The notes beneath the pieces are model-generated. The model saw nothing but the letters and a program-made list of their open reading frames with translations. It was not told the origin of the DNA and searched no databases. A stretch of 64,000 nucleotides of DNA from Mesaphorura yosii (lineage: Eukaryota; Arthropoda; Collembola; Poduromorpha; Tullbergiidae): the NCBI GenBank assembly GCA_009869945.1, contig WIXG01000286.1, positions 38,389 through 102,388 of the forward strand, given 5' to 3'. The translations under genes and the position numbers were made by a program. Within the stretch, counting starts at the first letter, position 1, and each line of letters starts with the position of its first letter. This document shows positions 26,059 to 59,600 of this stretch, piece by piece.

Positions 26059-29000
26059 ATGGCGCCGACGATGGCTCTTTTTTTGTTCTTAGCAGCTCAA
26101 CACGGAGTCGAAGGTAATTCGCACTTCGCAGCTGTCGTCTGTTTAATGAATAAAAATGCTAAGCATGTTCGCTCTCTCGCGTATATCAGGGCAACTTTTT
26201 GGAGGTGGCGGGCTGCTCGGCGGTCTGAACGTGCTCAGCAATCTCGCCAACGGAGGACCCGGCGGCGGCGGGTCGCTGACGGGCCCGATCAACGTCCTCT
26301 CCTCAGGCGTAGGCGGTGAAGGAGGACGTCTGGGTGGCCTCAATATTCTTAGCAATGGCGCTGCCGGTGTCGGTGCAGGTGCTGGTGCTGGAGGAGGACT
26401 TCTGGGCGGCCTTAACGTGCTCTCTTCCGGTCCTGGCTTTGGCCCAGGTGCAGGTGCAGGCGCAAGCGGTGGCTTGCTGGGTCCCGTCAATATTTTGAGC
26501 AACGGGGCGGGCGGTGGTTTGTTGGGGGGACTCAACGTGCTGAGTTCTGGGGCCGGAGGTCTTCATGGTCCTGGAGCCGGACTCGGTGATGGCCTTGGTG
26601 GGCTTGGAAGTGGATTGGACAGTCTTGGTGGACTGGCTGGAGGCAGAGCTGAAGCAACAGCTTCATCATCAGCTGCAGCAAGCGGTGGCGCTGCAGGAGC
26701 TGGTTCATCAGGATTCGGCGATGGCTTTAACGATGGTAGATCGGGGGCATCGAATGGTTTTGCAGGGGCTGGTGGGTCCAACGGATTCATGGGTGGATCT
26801 GCGGCCTCTTCGGGCCCTGCAGCCGGTGGCGCTGGATTCGCAGGTATGCAAAGCAGCCGGCTGGGGCTATAAATCGAGGACTCAAGTCCAATACGACTAA
26901 TAATAATCTATTTTACCTGCAGTGAATTCAGGCTCTGGAGCAGGCGGTGGGTCAATGGGAGGATTCTCCGACGCCTCAGCCACAGCTGCTGGGGTAGCCG
27001 GTGGTTCTGGATTCAATGGCGGATTCTCAGGGGCAGACGGCAGTATGCACCGGGGGGTGTCGTCAGGTGGATTCCAGGGAGGCTCATCTGGAAGGTCCGG
27101 CATGGGCCAAGGCTCTACTTTCGCTGGCGGCGCCAGCAGCGGTACGCTGGGATCCGGGTTCGGGTCGGATGGTTCGTCTGCTCTTGGCGGAGCGGCTGGA
27201 GGCGCTGGTTTTAATAATGGATTTGGTGGAGGAGCTGGCGGTGCAAAGGTAGCAGATGTGGCTGCTGGTAGCGCAGGGCAATTTGGCGGAATGAACGGCA
27301 TAGGATCAGGATTCGGCAGTGCTGGCGGAGCGACTGCGGCTGGCACATCACAGTTCGGTGGAATGAATGGAATGGGATCAGGATTTGGCGGTGCTGGAGG
27401 AGCAGTGGCTTCGTCTGCAGCCGCAGGCGGAATGACAGGTGCTGGCATGAGCAACGGATTTGCGGGAGGTGCTGGACTGGCTCAAGGCGCCGCGATGAAT
27501 GCTGCAATGGGAGGAGCTAGTGACGGATTCAATCATGAGCTGGGGGGAGCAGCAGGAGGCATGGCAGCTGTATCTGGCTTCGGAGGCAGGTCCGCACTCG
27601 CCGCCGGTGGCGCTTCTGGAGGAATAGGCCTTGCAGGTGGGTCGCTGACGGCCGGAGCGGCGGGAGTTGGAAGCTTGAACCGACTTGGGTTTGGAAACGG
27701 ACTGGGCTACCGCGGATATCCTGGGATGTACATGGCGTCCCCGGGTTACGGCTTCGCCCCGGGCTTCAAGTTCGGTCGCCCGATGTACGGCCCCGGATTC
27801 TTCGGACAACCCAACTTTGACTTTCCCGGCTACGGATTTGGTCGACCGCCATTTCTCGGATCTCCATTCGTTGGGTCGGGATTTGGAGGCCTCGGCGGTG
27901 GTTTTAGGCTCTCCGGTGGGAACTTTGGAGGATTTGGACTCTCTGATGGGACTGGTTTTGGATTGGGAGCCTTAAGCTACCCGTGGTTTGGCCATGGATA
28001 CCCCGGAAGATTCCGAGATTTTGGGATGGGATCAGGCTTCGGAGGACTCGGAGGATTTGGGTCTTCTCTTGGTTTTGGGATGGGCGCTGGTTTCGGAAGA
28101 TTTGGCCTGGGCAGTCAATTAGGAATGAGTCCATTCGGGTTCGGAAGCTACGGATTTGGGAACCTTGGAATGATTGGCATGCAATGGGTAACGCCTGGAT
28201 GGGGATTCGGTCCTGCGTCAGACCTGGGCGGCCTTGGGTTCTCTGGATTTGGACAGCAATTAGGATTCGGTGGGTTCCCACTCTTCCCTGGCTTTGGTTT
28301 TGGAGGATACGGAAAACTTGGCTTCCCGTTCCATGGCGGCTACAACATCGGATTCCCACACTACTCCCAAGGCTACTACCCGGGCGTTGGCTACGGAGGA
28401 ATGGAACAATTTGGTATTGGTTTTGGCGGCTTTGGTAACATGGGTTACGGTAGACTCGGTGGACTTGGATTCGGCAGCCACGGCGAGTTTGGCTACGATG
28501 GATATAGAGGCTTCGGTGGATTTGGATATGGCGGTGACGGTTGGTTTGGCTATGGCGGACTTGGTTATGGAGGCTACGGTGGGTTCGGTTATGGAGGTCA
28601 TGGGTATGGCGGCTACGGTGGAGGTTTTACCGGCATTGGATCTCCGTTCTTTTTCCGCGGCTATTATCCTGGCTTTGGCTTTGGACAATTTGGTTCCCCG
28701 TTCTTTGGCTATAGTTACTACCCGGGAGCGTTTAAATCGCTTGGCAGCTATCGTCCGTTTGGTTTTCGCTACGGGGCGTTCGGGGTCAATCCCGACTTTG
28801 GATTTCAAGGAGGATTTGGTAGCCTCGGCTTCGGGACTCTGATTTCTCCGTTTGGGTTTGGTAGGCCCATGACTCCATTCGGGTTCGGAAGCAACATGGG
28901 ACTCTTCGGAGGAATGCCATCTAATTTGGGATTTGGAGGCTTATTCATGAGTCCCTTCGCCGGTGGACTTGGAGGGCTGGACGGTCTCAATCGATTTAAC

Positions 29001-29201
29001 CTGGGTTCCGGTTTTGGAAGCTCAGGCTTTGGATTTGGAGGCCCAAATGGTTTTGGACCCCTCGGAAATTCAGGCTTTGGATTTGCAAGTCCCGGCTTCG
29101 GGTTTGGAGGTCAAATGGGTAGCGGATTTGGTAATGGGTTTGGATCCTTCGGAAGCGGAGTTGGCAGTCCCTTTGGGTTTCTCGATGGCGGACTAGGATA
29201 A
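26059..29201 (+). CDS. Secreted glycine-rich structural protein with two repeat classes
   Basis: Probable extracellular structural protein (cuticle, silk, glue or eggshell-like). No specific family recognised. Three exons: 26059-26113, 26190-26843 and 26923-29201, phase-consistent, giving 995 residues. The short first exon encodes a signal peptide, MAPTMALFLFLAAQHGVEG. Residues about 20-135 are built from repeats alternating GGLLGGLNVLSS with GPINVLSS or GPVNILSN. Residues about 135-490 are Gly/Ala/Ser-rich with GFG and AGG motifs. From about 490 on, the protein turns into aromatic repeats (GFGFG, PFGFGS, YGGYGGFGYGG, FPGYGFG) rich in Phe and Tyr, with no Cys noticed. Tyr-Gly-rich segments of this sort are often cross-linked or phase-separating; that is inference. 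The reading frame is uninterrupted for 759 codons in exon 3. Antisense open frames here are shadows of the glycine-codon bias. Confidence 0.85.
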
Positions 29202-35000: not shown

Positions 35001-38000
35001 AGCGTCCGGCCCCTTTTCTTGTAACTACAATTCATTTGACAGTGCTTCAAAAAAGAGCACGACTGACCTTCATTTTGAAATTGAAGCCTCGTGGCCGTCG
35101 ATATCCTTCACTTTATTTGTTCCACGTGGACTTTATGCTTGTTTTCGTGTTTTCGTCTGGCATTCCAGTGGCCGGACGTCATTTATGAAAAATATTATTT
35201 CAATTTATTCAGCACGTTTCCATTGAAGCCACAGCCGACGCATCGGCCGGCGGCGCGACAAATTCGATTTTCATTCGAAATTGTCGTAAACTTGTTGTTC
35301 CCATGAAAGAATGGTGCTTAACGGCCGTAATGTGGCCATTGAAAATTTCTAGAAGCAAGTGACTCACGATTTCTTGAGTCACAACCGAACTTTGATTCAT
35401 AACCCGTCGAAATTTATGGCTTGTCTTTCGTCAGCTGCAATCAAGACCTGACGTGGCTTGACTGGCCTGACGTTTCCTGTCGTGTTTCGAGCGAATTTCA
35501 GCTGCCTTCGCCGTTTCTCACGGCTGGCTTGAAATTCCTTCAACGTGTCGTCATCGTCGTTCGTTGTCATCGCCATTCGTGACATCTTATCAGGTCGGGC
35601 TTAAATTACACCTTACGCAATAGGACAAGAAATTTCTTAATGTGAAATGTGAACTCAGTTTTTGAAATATCTTCCGTTTGTGATTTTTAATTAATGGCCA
35701 CATTTTTCATTGTTGGTTGCAGGGTTCGATGGACCAAGTTCTGGACTTGAGAAAGTCGAGTTCGCCAGGTATGTTCGCGTTTTTCCTTTTCTGCGTTTTG
35801 TTCCATTCATCAGGCCAATAACGCAACGGCGCTAGCTGGCTGACTGGGCTGTGTGGCGGTGGCATGACATCTCGGGGGCTATTTGACATGTTATCTGCGG
35901 CATTTCTTGTGCACTCTTTCAAACTTTCTTGCGAAGCCTTGCCAAGACGCGCTCGTGCGTGCCCCTGTCATGCCTACGCGTTCGTCGCGGGTTCCTACGC
36001 GACCGACCACGATGGTTGTCTCAGGCACGGCAGGTACGGCAGGAAAGTGCATCGTCAGAGCCATCATCAGGCTTCTACTTCCTTCTGCTTCTGCTTGGGT
36101 CTTAACATTCTGCAAAACGCAAACACCATGGCAAAACGTAAACGGCAAATCTCACCTTCGTCGTCACTTCTCGCAGTTTCTCATTCACACCTCACACAAT
36201 GCAGATTTCCTATTCGCATAAAAACATGGCGTCAGTGTAGAAAAACAGTTTCAAAAGTCCTGACCACGCACGCTCTTAGCTCGCTCTCGGCTCTTTCCAC
36301 CTTCACTTAAAACGTACAGCAAAGTTGAAATACCTGTAAATTACACACAGAAAAGCCATGCATTTGGTGCGGAAAGCACAGCACCTTCTGCAGTGCCACC
36401 GACAACGGGATTGGGGCCGAATTTTGTTCCGAAGTTTGTTTCGACCAATTTCGACGCGACTCCTTTAAAAAGCGGTCGGCGTGTATCTGGTGCAATAACA
36501 GCATCACCAACAATAGCAACGGTTCTGGGCCCGGGAGTCTCGTTAATATTAACTTGAATTCAAACGTGGACGAAACGAAATTCTGCTCGGAGAGTTGCCT
36601 CGCACAGTACAAGGTCAGGTTATTTTGCGAAGAAACCTCAGCCCACCTGGACCAAATCAAGGTAGCGCACTCAATTTTGTCGTGCACGATACTTCAAACT
36701 TTCATTTTTGCTTCTCATCGATTTCATCAAACGTGTGGCAGCATGCTTGAAATAATTTTCGTCTTTCTTTTCCTTTCTCTGCTTTTTAACCACCTTCACG
36801 TTTGGGGCGGACTTTTCTCAAAAGCCAAATTCATGCTTAATTTATGTTTCTTTCGCATTTACGTCCTATGTGATCATGCTATGCTTAAAAACGCTTTTGG
36901 AACGCATTGCACAATTCTCAACGCTAAATTGCACCGAATTTGAACAGAACTCTAAAAATGGAGGCGCAAACATCGGTATCGGAGGCGGACTACCAAACGG
37001 CAACGAAAATGGAACGGACTTGATCACCCCTGACTTGTGGCTTAAAAAATTACCAAATGGCTTCTTGGGCAGCGGCGGCGTCGGCGGTGGTGGCAGCAGC
37101 GGTTCGGGCATCGAAAGAAGTTCTCCCCACTCGTCGTCATCTTCAGATTTGTCTCCTTCAGCTCTTTTCTCACCTAATTACGCTTTGAATTCCGGGCACA
37201 ATGAGAGCAGCAGCGTCTGCCCTGTCGCTCCTTCTAGCTCACCGGCGGCAGTCACTGTCGGCCCTTCCACTTCCGGAAGACGGCTGCAGCTCGAACTCGG
37301 CGACGCTTCGCTTTCGCCCGGCAAACTGAAGTCGGCGGAGGTTTCTCCTCGCAGTCGAGTCAACTGTAAGCCCTGCGATCAGAATTTTACTGTCATTAAC
37401 GATCCGTTCAGCCACTCAAACTATTTGAGTAGCGTAAAACGTAGCAGAGGGCAGCAGCACTCTGCTGCTGCTTCTGCGGCGACACCCCCACCGAAGAAAA
37501 AGTTCAACATGTCTTATCCGATCATTTCTAATTTCATAAACCAAAATCAAAATTCGGCATCCGTGCCAATGCCAAGTCAATCACCCATTCCGCTGCAATT
37601 AGTTCAGCCGATGGAGGCGGCTGCTGCTGCGTCTGCTCAAAAGATGCGTGCCGGCAGAAAGAGCGGCAGTCGAAATTACAGAATCAGAGCTTGTAACTTA
37701 ATAACTACGACGGCTCCGACTACTCCTTCTCTTCCTTCCCAGCTTCCTTTAATTATCCATCCGGGGGAAGTAACTTTTATCAAACCGGAACTTTTTGCCC
37801 GGTCAGGCCTCGCGCTCCAGGAATCCAGCGCTCCAACTGCTGGCCACGTGGGCAAGGGCGCAAAATTTCAAGATTCCGCGCAACTCCAGCAAAATAAAAT
37901 ATTTTCCAATGTAACGAGCGCGAACGGGAGCGGCCGCCCGCTTTCGCTTGCGCACGACAGTTCCTCTTTCGTTTTTGCATCCACCCAGACGGACGAGTCC

Positions 38001-42291: not shown

Positions 42292-43753
42292 TTAAAATTC
42301 GAAGCCGAGAAGGTAAAGACGGCGGAAGGCGAGAGCAGCAATTGTCAGAACGACGGCTCCAACGAACATGCGGTATGCCGTGTCGTCTGCCGGAAGGGGA
42401 ATGTTGTCATCTTGACCGACGTCCTCTTCTTCATCTGGAATTGCGTGGTCACCAGCTTCATCATTAGGAACGGGTTGACGAAACTGGAAGCGCGGAAAGT
42501 CGACTGGTCCTTCAGCGTGAACGCGGCCATCACCAATTTCGGCGGCTGGAGTGTGCTCGTGTGGAAGACGGAAGACGCGTTGAGCAGGAGCTGGTGAAGG
42601 ATCAGCAGGAGGGGCACTTTCGTGAGCCTATTCATAGCAAGAAAACGAATAAAATCAAGGGCAATGCAAATTGATGTTGCACGACGATGTTTTCTTATCT
42701 TACATGACGATGACCGATGTCGTCAATAATTGGTCCACAAGTAGGGCAAACCCAAGCAACACTCTGGCGAGCAAGCCGTCGGCGGACTTCCGGAGAGCAT
42801 TCCAACGAGCCGATAGCACCAGGACTTGGAGTCGCCATAAAGCTGATAAGAGCCATCAAAGCAGTACGAATGGACCAGCAAGGGCGCCATGTTTCAGGAT
42901 GGTAGTTACTAATTGACAAACAAATTTTGACTCCTGTTTCAAAGCGACCGTTTGGCTGAAATATCAGAACAAAGATAAATTAGTAAATAATCTTCATGTA
43001 GTTCTCAATACTTATGCTTAATCACGGGTGAAGCTGCAGCGTTTACCGTTAGCATCATAATTGCTGGTGGTTTCAGAGGATAATCTGGTGGCATGATAAT
43101 TCGTCCATGATAAACCCCATCAGCAAACTCCGAATCACCAGGACCACGAATGGTGTAGTGCCATTCAAATAAATTGTCTTCCAGGGGAACTGCTCGAATA
43201 TCATTGGTGGGCTCCCGACTCATTTCCTGTGCTTCCTTCAGCAGACGCTTCACAGCTGAAATGAACGAGAAAAAGAAATTACTGAAATAATTTCCCATAC
43301 TTAGCTATCGGACTCGACGTATATCAGTGATGCTGTAATGTAGATATTAGTCACCTTACCTGGGCTTCTCAAATTGTAGTTTTCAGCGATCGGAAGTCTT
43401 GAGCTAGCCAATGGAGCACTTGGACGATTACTCCCAGTCTCAGTAGTTTCTGGAGTTGAAGCTGCGAGCCGACAGTTAGCAACAGAATTGGCGTTCGCGA
43501 GCGACCTCGGTTCACTCTCACTCTCCTTATCAGCAGCGGTCGAAGAGGTTTCTTCAGCCTGACTAGCGATCAGACGGTTTGACTCATCATTAGCAGCACC
43601 GGCAGGCGCAGGTGGAGGCTGCGATTGAGGACCACCGTCAGGAGCAGCTGCTACTACGATTTCTCCAATTCTTGAAGCCAACGTTCCATTGTCAGCCTGA
43701 GGGTCAGCATTATCGTTGGCACCTTCCGGTTGACTTTGAAGATTGAAATCCAT
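42292..43753 (-). CDS. UBE2J1: Ubiquitin-conjugating enzyme E2 J1, ER tail-anchored, with N-terminal extension
   Basis: ERAD E2 enzyme (Ubc6 type) that carries ubiquitin on a catalytic Cys at the ER surface and works with HRD1-type ligases. Four exons in transcript order: 43753-43360, 43255-43047, 42955-42704 and 42627-42292, giving 396 residues. The UBC fold begins at ENYNLRSPAVKRLLKEAQEM and continues DNLFEWHYTIRGPGDSEF, VYHGRIIMPPDYPLKPP and NGRFETGVKICLSIS, with the catalytic Cys at about residue 213. NYHPETW and GAIGSLECSPEVRRRLA follow. The C-terminal anchor is MFVGAVVLTIAALAFRRLYL, preceded by an acidic linker. Odd: about 125 Ser/Ala/Glu-rich residues precede the UBC domain, whereas the family normally starts within a few residues of NLKSPAVKR. 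The extension is in one open frame from ATG 43753 with a continuous splice, so it looks real. Confidence 0.94.
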
Positions 43754-44701: not shown

Positions 44702-44940
44702 ACATGGAAGTGAAGGTCTCGCAAATGATCCGCAGCCAGAAAGCAGAAGATTGATGAAGCTCTTAGGCTTAAAGACCATCCAAACAATCGAGTTCCTCGA
44801 GAATTTGGAGTCAGCGTTGATTAGAGAAGTCCTAGTAAGACTACAAACACCTACTTCAGTGATTCTGATCAAGTTCGATGGTTAATTACATTACGAGAAA
44901 TGATTTGACTATTTCTTCTTTCTATCTCTCTTTGCTTCAG

Positions 44941-45475
44941 TCGTGTTCGTTTGTTGACGGAGGTCAAGGACATGAGTCGGAAACTCACCAGATGTTCGAG
45001 CTGCTCTACTTACTGGAAGACAATTATTCGAAGATACTACAAACAACACAATTCGTGGCCCTGTTGACTCCGAATTCTGACGGCGTTTATCATGGACGAG
45101 TTATCATGCCTCCAGGCTATCCTTCGAAACCACTAGGATTTATGATGTTTACAGTAAGTACTGCATTTGTGATAAGTATTAAGCGCTAAATCAAGATTAT
45201 TTACTAATAAATTTGTCTTTGTCCTATTCTTTCAGCCTACCGGCCGATTTGAAACTTGAATCAAGATTTACTGGTCAATTAGCGGCTATAATCCAGAGAT
45301 ATCCAGTTTTTCCGCAATGCTTTGATGGCTCTTATCAGCTTTATGGCGACTCCAAGCCCTGGTGCTATCGGCTCGTTGGAATGCTCTCCGGAAGTCCGCC
45401 GACGGCTTGCTCGCCAGAGTGTTGCTTGGGTTTTGCCATACTTTGGACCAATTATTGACGACGTCGGCCATAGTC
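44941..45475 (+). pseudogene. Inverted UBE2J1 pseudogene (exons 2 and 3)
   Basis: A broken copy of the neighbouring UBE2J1, on the opposite strand about 1.2 kb away. The exon 2 copy spans 44941-45153, with acceptor TTGCTTCAG and donor ACA/GTAAGT still present. It keeps DGVYHGRVIMPPGYPSKP. The exon 3 copy starts at 45236 after TTTCAG: PTGRFET, a TGA where Gly is expected, then IKIYWSISGYNPE. The catalytic Cys of KICLSIS is therefore replaced by Tyr. From about 45323 to 45435 the copy is almost base-identical to the parent exon (one mismatch seen in about 113 bases: C at 45359 against T in the parent). It carries ALISFMATPSPGAIGSLECS and PEVRRRLARQSVAWV. Exons 1 and 4 are absent. Not expected to make an active E2. 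Confidence 0.92.
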
Positions 45476-45698
45476 TTGCAAGTAAATCGTGGTCATTAGA
45501 AATTGCCTTTCCGTTGATATTTTACTCATGTAGTTGTTGCTCTGTTACATTATTCCGAACAGACCGCAAATCTACTTCTCCTGGCTCTTCCACCACCTGT
45601 TCAGCGCGTCTTTCGCATTACACCTGAACACACTTTTGACGAACTTCGATGTAGCCACGAGTTACGAGTTTCGTGAGCTGTTATTCCCTTCCGTATTC

Positions 45699-46564: not shown

Positions 46565-48351
46565 ATGAAGACAATTTTGCTACAATTACTCGTCATTCTT
46601 CTCCAATTTACCTTCCTTCTACTTCTCCAGTCTCCCCCTGCCAATTCGGAAGTGTTGGCACTAAGCAGAATTCGTCCAATTGTCAGGTATTATTTTCTCG
46701 AAGAAGCCAAGGCCAAGAGGAGACACGAGAAGGAGATCGAGACGAACTCCATTCTCTCTTCATCCAACGAAGAAGCCGAAGCTCTGGAGCCAGCGAACGA
46801 GGAGCAGTTGCAATTGGTTTCAGATCTGAGCAATGAGGAAACTGATGGAGACGTCGACATGGACGATCAGACAAATGGAAAGACTACAACGTTTTCAAGC
46901 GCCAACACCACAGATCGATCGCCACCGGAAACATCACCGCCGAAGACTTTTAAACCCATTGTGTTATGGCATGGAATGGGTAAGTTATCATTAGTCGGTT
47001 TTTATTTGTTAGACAATGTTTACGTGCACCATGTTTGTTGACAATGTTGGTCTATTATCGTTTTCCGACTAAGATTTAGAATTTGTGCCTCGCAGGTGAT
47101 AACGCAGTTGGGGTGAAGTTCGCCTTGAGCTTCCTAACCAAGGAAATGCCAGGAGTCTACATCAAATCACTACAAATTGGACCAAACCCCGCTAAGGTAA
47201 GAGGTAACTAAAGCCAAGCGCATAATTTGCATTGTTGCATCTACCAATTCAAAATCCTTAGAGACGCTCTTGTTCTAATTCTTAGGACATCGAAAATGGA
47301 TTCTTCCTCAACGTAAATGAGCAGGTCGCGATGGTTTGCAATGACCTGAAGCAGGATAAGCTGTTGGCCAACGGATACAACGCCATCGGCTTGTCTCAAG
47401 GCGGCCAGTTTCTGTATGCACAATTGCAATTAAATTTTATTATTGCACATGAATATGCTTGATTGAAAATATTGTTAAATAGGAGAGCTGTGGCTCAAAG
47501 ATGTCCGGACCCTCCAATGTTCAACCTGATTTCGCTGGGTGGCCAACATCAGGGCGTGTTCGGTCTGCCGCAGTGTTCAGCGCCGAAACAGGGGTGGTGT
47601 GAAATAATTGACAAGCTCCTTACACACGCTGCGTATTCTGAGTAAGCTAAATACCAATTATAATAAACCTTAAATATTTTAAATTCATGCTAGAATTTCA
47701 TTTCCAATTATTCCTACTTTGTTTAAGCAATTAAGCACGATTCAAGAGTTCCAGAAAATAAAGAAATAATGCTCATTGTTCTTTTCAGATGGGTTCAGAA
47801 ATTTTTAGTTCAGGCGGAGTACTGGCACGATCCCTTCAAACCACAAATCTACGCCGAGAGCAGCGTCTTCCTCGCCGATATCAACAATGAGAGGGTATTT
47901 CCTATTTTATTTTTTACATTTGGATTTTCTCATTTTCCGTGCCATAAATTGACTTTGGAATTCAGTCATTGAACACCACGTACAAAGAAAATCTCCAGAA
48001 ACTCCGCAATTTGGTTTTGGTACTGTTTGAAGGCGACACAATTGTCCAACCGAAAGATAGTGAATGGTTCGGGTATTTTAAGGATGGGCAGGACAAAGTT
48101 ATGTACAAAATGGAGGATTCGGCTCTGTACAAAGAAGTACGAAATTTCTCCAAATATCCACATGCAAATGAATCGCTGACTCATTGACGACTGTGATTAA
48201 GTTTGCTCTTAACAAAATCTTACAGGATCGGATTGGACTGAAAACACTGAATGAAAGTGGACGGCTGCATTTGCTGTCGGTGCCTGGAAATCATTTGATA
48301 TTCAGCAAAGCCTGGTTCATTCGAAACATTGTCAAACCGTTCCTCATGTGA
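46565..48351 (+). CDS. PPT1: Palmitoyl-protein thioesterase 1 with acidic N-terminal insert
   Basis: Lysosomal hydrolase that removes thioester-linked fatty acyl groups from cysteines of proteins under degradation. Seven exons: 46565-46979, 47096-47196, 47286-47413, 47483-47641, 47789-47894, 47966-48136 and 48226-48351, giving 401 residues. The signal peptide is [20 protein letters not shown]. The alpha/beta hydrolase core starts at [15 protein letters not shown]. Triad: Ser at about 209 in [16 protein letters not shown], Asp at about 327 in [16 protein letters not shown], and His at about 383 in [13 protein letters not shown]. These align with human Ser115, Asp233 and His289. Odd: about 95 extra Glu/Ser/Thr-rich residues sit between the signal peptide and the hydrolase core (human protein 306 residues). 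The start was chosen at the Met opening the signal peptide. A damaged copy of exons 6-7 and the 3' UTR follows downstream. Confidence 0.95.
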
Positions 48352-55200: not shown

Positions 55201-56618
55201 CCCAAAAAATATCCAGAAGTAGTTTTTGATAACCATTTTAAACGCGGGGCCTCGGGCGGTTGTTCTAAATTGTAATTAACATGCCTCCGTTTCAAGTTTA
55301 CAAGTTACAAGGCATTTCCGGAAGCGGAAATTAAAAAGTGTTCGTGATCTGTCGATTTGATAGGCAGAGATCGAGTTTCGTTCCTCTCGTAGACCCAGAA
55401 ATTAATGCAAAATAAGAAAGACCTTTACAGTTGCAATTTGCAATTACTAAACTATACCACAACAGAGTGAACGCCCTTTGCTGTATCGCGTTATTATTAT
55501 CATTCCCACGTTGACGTTGATGCTAATTTCGCCATTGGCTTCATGTCTTAACTTGAGAGTAATAACACGTCATCGCGTCGTAGTCGCATCGTAGTCGAAT
55601 AGCTTATATCTCAAAAATGTAGGTAAAAGGTTAGCAATGACTTTTGGTTAGATTAGATTAGCCAACGGAATTCAGAACAGAATTCGACCCTTTGAAAAAT
55701 TGAAATGAGACGTGTAATACGTGGTACGCTGTACGCTTGACGATAAGAAGAACAAAGAGCCGATTTGAGGCAGCCAACTGCAAAACTGAAGCGCTACGCC
55801 GGCCTGCTTACGTGCGTGCGTTGAGATGCATACGACTCCTCTGTGAGCAACTCATAACAAACAGAAAATCAAGCAAAGGAGTGGGAAGACGAGAGAGAAT
55901 GAAATATGAGCGACAGTGCTTTGTTTCGTGTTTTGCGTTATCGCGATAAGAATGATCCGTAAGGCGATCGAGTTTATCCACATCCCACATCCTCGGTTTA
56001 AGTTTATAAGACTCACAAAAATAAATAGGAGGTTCCGTCCTTTGTGAAGTAATTCTAGTTGTTTAACGTTTTTCGTATGTAATATTTTCAGTGACTGACA
56101 ATCACATTCTAGCACAGTTTAGTTAACTTAAGTTCAATACTTAAATGCAATAATTCAGCTCCGAGTCCAGAATCCGTTTTCATTTGTGATGTAGGTCGAG
56201 TCTGGGTGTGGTGGGTAGTAATATTTCTATCTATCCATAATTATTTTTTAGTATTTAGTTAATGTGTCCAATTAAATTTAAAACTACAGTGTCTTACAGT
56301 CCACTGTTATGTTTTGTGCAGATAAGAGCTTGGCAGCAATGTGGCTTGTGAAGCTAGTATTTGTGTGATAACTACTGTCACTTCAGCATTCAGCTTGAAG
56401 ATTAAGGTTCTATGATATCAAAACATTTATTCCGGCCATGGCTGATCGCATTTATGAACGTAAATAAAAATATCGACTCTCGCATGCACCTTCAACTGGC
56501 TAGCCAATGGGTCTCTTGGACTCATCCTAGCGCTTGAGATAAGGAGACTTTATGCGACTGAAGCCTCCACTTTATTTTATCCTTAGATCCTGGACTGGTC
56601 TCATTCCGTGCGCCCGGA
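52263..56618. other. Gene-free region upstream of the BTB gene
   Basis: No gene supported in 4.3 kb. Open frames are short and without codon bias. GCAATTGCAATT and TTGCAATTTGCAATT words recur (54735-54750, 55430-55445). It may contain regulatory DNA of the cuticle gene (near side) and of the BTB gene (far side). Confidence 0.5.
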
Positions 56619-59600
56619 ATGGGAGAACGCGGCGAATTGTCTGTTAAAGTATATTCAAGGAATCAACAACACGTGCCCCCGACGGATCCAAGAGTAATGG
56701 TTCAAGTCATCTGCACCGAGGGTTATTTTTACATCCATAAAACTTTGCTCGTAGTCAACTCACCAATGCTAAAGGAATTGCTGAGAGAGGTGAGTGCAAA
56801 AGGACAAGCATTGCGTGATTTGAGTAATTTCTTTCATTGTCCAACTGATCAACTGCGATGTGTTTCCTTTTCTCAGGACACTGAAGACACACCTGTGCTC
56901 AGGCTGGCAGATGTTGATGTTCAAGTCGCCGAGAAATTATTTCGCTGCATATACCAAGGTTACACCGTCGCCACAGGCTTTGCGGAGGTACGAGCAATCG
57001 AGTCATTGGCTCGGTCGCTGGACTTCCGTCCATTCACTTCGACGGTAGCGACTCGTGAAGACAAATCCAGATCTTGTCCACTGATCTCTTGTCTGGGGAA
57101 CCCGGTCGTGGAAGTGCCAAGAACGAATGTCCCCGTCGTCACTGCACCCGTTCGGGTGAATCAGCAGTCCACTTCTGCTAGCAATGGCAACACCACGAAT
57201 CCTGCTGCTACCGCAGCCGGGTCAGCTCCTCCTCTAGAGCGATGCGCTCCGCCTCCATCACTCGGTTTTGCGCCCATAGTCAACCGCAGGAATTCCAGCC
57301 CTTACCTTAGCATTCTACCCACTTCGTTCTCAACCAGTGCGCTTGTTGACTTCAGTCAACGCCAATCCGGCTTTCAACAGCTTAGAAATAAACTGGCAGG
57401 CATCCGTGAACTCAAAGGAGAGACGGAGAGTAACCAAGCCCCATCTGGAAGTCGGCAGCATGGAAATTACTGTTACGACAATCGTGCGGACAGAACGGAA
57501 AATACACAAGCTCCTTCTTTCCTTCGACAAAATTCAAGCGACGCGCCAAGAAAGAGAAAACGGGAAGAGCTGCCAGTGTTCATGAAAACCATCCGTGAGC
57601 CTTCGCCAAACAAAGTTCCTCGTGTCGATTGCCGTGATCCTGTACTCGCGTCGTCGGACCCCCAGCAATCCACGTCCAAAGCTTGTCCACCGGCAGGAGG
57701 CAAGAAGGTGACCGAAATGTATATTCCATCGTTTCGTAAAATACTACCAAACCCTGTGTTGTCGCCCGATCGAATTCCTCGTGAAAATCCGATTCGAAAG
57801 CCCAAACCGAAGCCAGAGGAAGTACCCTGCCCAACCCGAGGTAAGAAAGAAATGCGAGCCGGCCGTGACTTTAGCCAATTTTCCTGAGTTTTCCTGACTA
57901 AATGTTGAGTGTCCTCATTTTCTAGCTTCCATGCGCAATGCTCTCATGAAACAGCAACGTGAACAGCAACCGTCAAGTACTCAGCAAAATGTCGGAACTG
58001 CTGGTACTAGATCTAAAAGTGATAAAGATAAAGTGAATACTGCCCAGCAAGAAGACGCTAGTAATGAATCCGGGCAAGTACCCAAAGGTAAATTGTAAAA
58101 ATTGTATTGTTTTTTAAGGGCCTGGCTACAGTCGTATGTCAGTCATTTTATGTAATTTCTCTGTGTGCTGCAGATGATGATGGATCTGATGGGCGTCAGG
58201 GAGGTCAGAAATGTTACTTCTGTGGATCAGAATTACGAACCATTAAAGGTAGCCACCGTACACTGTGATATCTGAAAGCCAATACTTAATATGATTTATA
58301 ATGACTGACTGAATAATCATTCAATCCCGGCAGAATTGGTTGACCATCTCAAGACATGCATGAGTCATTTAAATGTCACTCTGGCTACATTGACCAACAG
58401 GACGTGCACTTTCTGTGCGAAGAAACTTCGTAGACGCAGTTCAGTAAGCGCTTATCTGAGACATTTGATCCGATGCTGCAATGAACTAGTAACCCGTAAG
58501 TTCGCCATTCATTATTTCCTTTCAAAACACATTCCGGCCTTTGCGGTCCATCTTGTCTAGTAGTTCAGTTGAATTTATGTCACGAATAATCTCTTATGCA
58601 GCGAATGCGGATAGCAGTGTCACTAGTGCGAGCAAGAATGCACCTGCTACTAGAAAGAAGTCTGATAAGAATGATGCAAAGGATACTGCTAAAAAATCTC
58701 CCGACAAGAATATGGCTGCTACAAACGAAATCTCTGATAAGAAAAACGCAGGGAATTCCACCCCTAAGAACGTGGCTCCTAGCAATAAATTTTCTGATAA
58801 AAACAAAGCAGAGGACGGCTCCAAGAAGTCTGCATATAAGAATGTGGCTGATAACAGCAAAATGTCTGAGAAAAGGAATGCAGTGAGAGTCACCAGAAAT
58901 TCCGCCGATAAGAACACGGCTACTAGCGATAAAAAGTCTGACCAAAACAACGCAAGGGATGGCTCCAAAAATGTTGCAGATAAGAATGTGGCTGATTATA
59001 GCAGAATGTCTGAGAAAAAGAATGCGGTGAGAGTCACCAGAAATTCCGCCGATAAGAACACGGCTGTTGCCAACAAAAAGTCTGATAATAGTAACGCGGA
59101 GGACGTCTTCAAAAGTCCTGCATATAAGAACGCCGCGTCTGAAAAAAGGAATGCAGTGAGAGTCACCAGAAATTCCGCCGATAAGGGTACAGCTAATATC
59201 GACAAGAATTTCGATAAGACAGCAGATGTTGACAAGAAAGCTGGTGGCGAGAACCTGGACAAAAGGAACGTCGCTGAGAATGGGAAATATTCTGCCAATA
59301 AGAACTCAGTTGATGCCAACCGTAATTCGACAAGTAAGAACGCTGCCAACTCCGGTAGAAATTCTGTCAACAAGGGTGCTGTTGATACAAGGAAGAAACC
59401 GGACAAGAAAGATGTCGATGATAATGCGGTTGGAGCCGGCAATATTCCTACTAGCACAAACTCTCGAAACGCGGTCCGGAAGAAAGCATCGGTTCAGAAC
59501 ACCAAGCAATCACCAGGATCTGACAGCAGCATTTGTTCTTCTGCGTCCTCGTTCGGCTCTCCACTCACACAGGGAGAAGTAATTGAACTTGGCAACTTAA

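Follow-up and report, generated by a model that had tools for sequence, protein, structure and literature searches.

A near-identical tract in an inverted UBE2J1-like pseudogene of the springtail Mesaphorura yosii, probably the product of recent gene conversion

Conversion between neighbouring gene copies

Gene conversion between adjacent inverted paralogs has been described in Caenorhabditis for hsp16 and for the pair hsp70-7/hsp70-8, and the same account presents fog-2/ftr-1 as a tandem pair in which the conversion tract ran into a region of 77% identity (PMC3966223). We analysed a window of 64,000 nucleotides of Mesaphorura yosii DNA (the whole stretch under study; contig WIXG01000286.1, positions 38,389 to 102,388) in which a UBE2J1-like gene lies beside an inverted, decayed copy of itself. 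The Caenorhabditis pairs resemble this locus in two respects (PMC3966223): the copies are neighbours, with spacings between a few hundred bases and about 2 kb, and a short near-identical tract lies inside moderately diverged sequence. They differ from it in that the likely recipient here is a truncated pseudogene and in that the direction of transfer is read here from a single genome. Whereas fog-2 and ftr-1 are in tandem (PMC3966223), the M. yosii copies lie in inverted orientation with about 1.07 kb between them. The decayed copy is like an ordinary non-processed pseudogene in having introns, frameshifts and a stop, and in being a partial copy beside its parent, but unlike one in that a single tract has apparently been rewritten with parent sequence. 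A literature search of a limited collection found nothing on a UBE2J1 pseudogene with gene conversion.

The parent gene and its inverted copy

The UBE2J1-like gene occupies 42292..43753 on the minus strand and consists of four exons (43753-43360, 43255-43047, 42955-42704 and 42627-42292) encoding 396 amino acids, with a UBC domain (Pfam UQ_con, 7.7e-19) and a hydrophobic C-terminal tail. The splice sites of this model were picked by eye, from sequence alone, and the spliced frame contains no internal stops. Among the best 60 of 267 matches to solved structures, the closest are Ubc6 (7.6e-41) and UBE2J2 (3.2e-40); four Ubc6/UBE2J2 chains score at or below 3.2e-38, and the next chain follows at 1.4e-18. 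A search of NCBIfam returned no family for the protein. The UBC core and the hydrophobic tail, a putative anchor read from the translation, place the gene in the UBE2J/Ubc6 group of ER-anchored E2 enzymes. Two further UBE2J2-like genes are present in the genome (contig C58 near 268.1 kb and contig C280 near 41 kb), at 42% and 38% identity; the core is split by several introns in one of them and largely uninterrupted in the other. The protein is presumably closest to human UBE2J1; with the two other UBE2J2-like genes in the genome, this makes J1 rather than J2 a tentative assignment, and we call the gene UBE2J1-like. About 125 residues precede the motif YNLRSP, where the UBC region starts (exon 43753-43360, minus strand), and this N-terminal extension is presumably absent from human UBE2J1.

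The inverted copy, defined by alignment to the gene, is an intron-bearing partial UBE2J1 pseudogene at 44820..45634 on the plus strand, the gap of about 1.07 kb being measured to it from the parent start codon. It contains the final bases of exon 1, introns 1-3, exons 2-3 and the beginning of exon 4. The alignment score of the stretch spanning the end of exon 1 and intron 1 was reached by 0/300 shuffles, and the same holds for intron 3 with the start of exon 4 (0/300). Exon 1 proper is not above background in the pseudogene, with 46/300 shuffles reaching its score (151/300 when upstream sequence is included), and homology further downstream of the exon-4 start is borderline (3/300). The two copies form inverted arms at 42699-42868 and 45313-45482 (170 nt, 91% complementary, 2444 nt apart), a second pair at 43035-43123 and 45077-45165 (89 nt, 81% complementary) and a weaker 48-nt pair.

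Decay of the copy is extensive. At aligned sites, introns 1, 2 and 3 have identities to the gene of 0.77, 0.81 and 0.83, with 9 gap events in intron 1 and 4 in intron 2, and the beginning of exon 4 stands at 0.73. The first-pass annotation had described exon 2 and the first third of exon 3 as strongly diverged, which the values of 0.806 for exon 2 and 0.675 for exon 3 before the tract bear out; exon 3 after the tract stands at 0.872. Alignment and translation likewise confirm that the catalytic Cys is replaced by Tyr and that an in-frame stop is present, the latter in early exon 3. Exon 2 has accumulated nine frameshifting indels relative to 209 gene bases in the alignment used. Outside the tract, 45/234 nondegenerate and 19/59 fourfold sites have changed, a ratio of about 0.6 that, compared informally, is near the expectation for a copy unconstrained since birth; such decay agrees with the missing first exon. 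With its introns kept and its reading frame broken, the copy is a non-processed (duplicated) pseudogene; a processed retrocopy is rejected because the introns are retained. The pseudogene frame at 45304-45480 gives a sub-threshold Pfam match to the unrelated family FR47 (12.2 bits against a threshold of 22.1).

Several other frames of the window were also inspected. To the right of the pseudogene the next gene seems to begin at 46565-46984 (plus strand), with a first exon that ends in VLWHGMG; this ending resembles, we presume, palmitoyl-protein thioesterase, and a Pfam search of 46565-46984 was without match. Repetitive, very glycine-rich frames at 26150-29201 (plus strand) look silk- or cuticle-like, and Pfam gave no match at E 0.01 for 26907-29198. 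At 36329-36943 (plus strand) a match to Sine oculis-binding protein scores 34.6 bits and so narrowly misses the curated cut-off of 35, and a long frame at 56562-57887 (plus strand) carries a BTB/POZ domain (22.1 bits, cut-off 20.5).

The near-identical tract in exon 3

Alignment of the two loci reveals that divergence is not uniform, as the first-pass annotation had anticipated, and that a bounded patch stands out. This probable conversion tract lies at 45318..45437 on the plus strand of the pseudogene, and may reach to about 45462; its counterpart in the gene, the probable donor, lies in exon 3 at 42745..42863 on the minus strand and is an open frame. Across 119 aligned sites the two differ by one substitution (45357) and by a 1-base insertion (45431). 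The mid-exon-3 patch noticed earlier is thus real and does contain a single substitution, but the insertion had been missed, and the gene coordinates assigned to it (42753-42865) were about 6 bases off, 45323-45435 actually pairing with 42858-42747. In a segment scan that counted each indel once as an alignment column difference, the best segment was 45318-45462, where 4/146 alignment columns differ compared to 176/656 outside. Its log-likelihood gain of 27.2 was reached by 0/200 permutations, whose maximum was 10.5, and the longest identical run, 73 bases, exceeds a permutation maximum of 53 (0/20,000). A chance run of identity is rejected by these permutations. The observed pattern is that of a conversion tract, a bounded excess of identity within diverged homologs.

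With rates fixed from the segment scan, the pooled 95% intervals of the breakpoints are 45316-45332 on the left and 45422-45470 on the right, and five alignment settings agree. The boundary had been described as sharp, which is true of the left edge. There the tract adjoins a poorly alignable stretch (45298..45317, plus strand) with a 10-base deletion relative to the gene, which may be the scar of a repair event. The right edge is softer, 45444-45462 being identical over its 19 bases. Loss of one base at 45444 offsets the 1-base insertion at 45431 and returns the final part of exon 3 to the reading frame of the gene, an oddity without clear meaning. Divergence of the flanks on both sides speaks against the patch as the margin of a larger duplication of recent date, and that reading is rejected.

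Silent sites are nearly unchanged as well, and protein constraint is therefore rejected as the cause of the identity. None of the 24 fourfold sites in the tract has changed, compared to 19/59 in other exon parts (p 0.001; the pool comprises exon 2, the pre-tract part of exon 3 and the exon-4 start, with the post-tract part of exon 3, 1/6, left out), and 1/17 twofold sites has changed compared to 23/62 (p 0.016). The excess of identity at silent sites, as in conversion tracts, goes beyond what protein constraint accounts for. Relative to introns 1 and 2, where 36/172 sites differ, the tract has 1/119 (Fisher p 3.4e-8, for a tract chosen post hoc, a choice for which the segment and run permutations allow). 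The corresponding Jukes-Cantor distances are 0.245 for introns 1 and 2 and 0.008 (upper bound 0.048) for the tract, far below the former, which implies that the copies last exchanged sequence long after the duplication.

A third copy as donor was sought in the assembly (93 Mb, 1127 contigs) with DNA queries of 602 and 201 bases. Each query scored two places, the gene and the pseudogene of this locus; a third copy as donor is rejected at the sensitivity of a search that skips very common words. The pair is also the sole inverted self-match at E 1e-8 in 253,028 bases (52 records, several overlapping). A COX1 search was negative, and so was one for SL1, which is uninformative since its controls gave no signal either.

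Direction of transfer and competing explanations

We consider it likely that the tract arose by recent ectopic gene conversion between gene and pseudogene, probably from the live gene into the dead copy. Conversion between the inverted neighbours, as the first-pass annotation had proposed, is supported by the bounded mosaic, the silent sites and the stable edges; flanks of about 75% identity are a poor recombination substrate and count against it. For direction the evidence is modest. Extrapolated from all other aligned coding parts of the pseudogene, a stretch as long as the tract should contain about 3.7 frameshifts, with a chance of 0.025 of containing none; exon 2 alone gives 5.1 (chance 0.006) and exon 3 outside the tract alone gives 1.8 (chance 0.17). 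Since a long-decayed donor would probably leave damage, and the gene's frame stays open through the tract, transfer from live to dead is favoured. The concern that the reverse direction could have damaged UBE2J1 finds no counterpart in the gene, in whose reading frame no damage was found.

Transfer from the dead copy into the live gene, at a time when the copy's exon 3 was still open, nevertheless has some features in its favour. Within the tract the gene keeps 8/20 residues common to both UBE2J2-like paralogs, compared to 39/62 before it (16/22 in the preceding part of exon 3), and it matches at least one of these paralogs at 17/38 columns. GC content in the pseudogene's tract is 0.562, compared to 0.412-0.466 in other exon parts, and third-position GC in the gene is 0.487 over 39 tract codons, compared to 0.231-0.441 in its other parts, both comparisons being descriptive and unpolarised. 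The low agreement with the paralogs may reflect a more variable region of the protein, and it lends the live-to-dead direction no help. Against a dead donor stand the open frame of the gene, the apparently unconstrained decay of the copy seen in its nondegenerate (45/234) and fourfold (19/59) changes, and the lesions that would probably have been passed on, whose absence has the chance of 0.025 computed from all other coding parts or 0.17 from exon 3; we regard this direction as improbable. An assembly artefact, in which gap filling or local collapse put exon 3 sequence of the gene in place of the pseudogene's own, seems equally doubtful: an identical run of 73 bases and a tract of about 120 bases are within the range of a short-read mistake, but the differences at 45357 and 45431 are private to the tract, the window contains zero N and the flanks are distinct on either side.

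Still less probable, in our judgement, is selection on RNA that kept the tract identical, for example as part of a long hairpin stem from which small RNAs against UBE2J1 would be made. The 170-nt arms, 91% complementary and 2444 nt apart, would suit such a stem, and the genome has 52 stretches with a Piwi-domain match, spread over 20 contigs and with 50 above the cut-off. Silent sites, however, would have to freeze in both copies while the remainder drifts, and just one short tract has been kept. This explanation predicts a hairpin transcript across both arms, small RNAs that tune UBE2J1 and a stem maintained by repeated conversion or selection, a scenario that we think very unlikely. The Piwi-domain stretches in themselves suggest a large Argonaute family, several of the frames containing stops.

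Under the preferred explanation, conversion of the pseudogene by the live gene, a UBE2J1 segment reaching from the last bases of exon 1 to the first part of exon 4 would have been duplicated in inverted orientation beside the gene, and the inverted copy, without most of exon 1, would have decayed to a pseudogene. A later break in the pseudogene's exon 3 may then have been repaired with sequence copied from the adjacent live gene, by a non-crossover ectopic conversion such as synthesis-dependent strand annealing, which would have overwritten about 120-145 bases of the pseudogene with gene sequence. The mosaic, its edges and the decay of the pseudogene are directly observed; how the break was repaired, which copy was the donor, how recent the exchange is and in what order the events took place are inferred from them. 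The mechanism itself is known, and the locus appears to be a clean example of it between inverted neighbours whose flanks are about 75% identical. Patches of this kind give misleading ages for duplicates, and they can confuse the mapping of reads.
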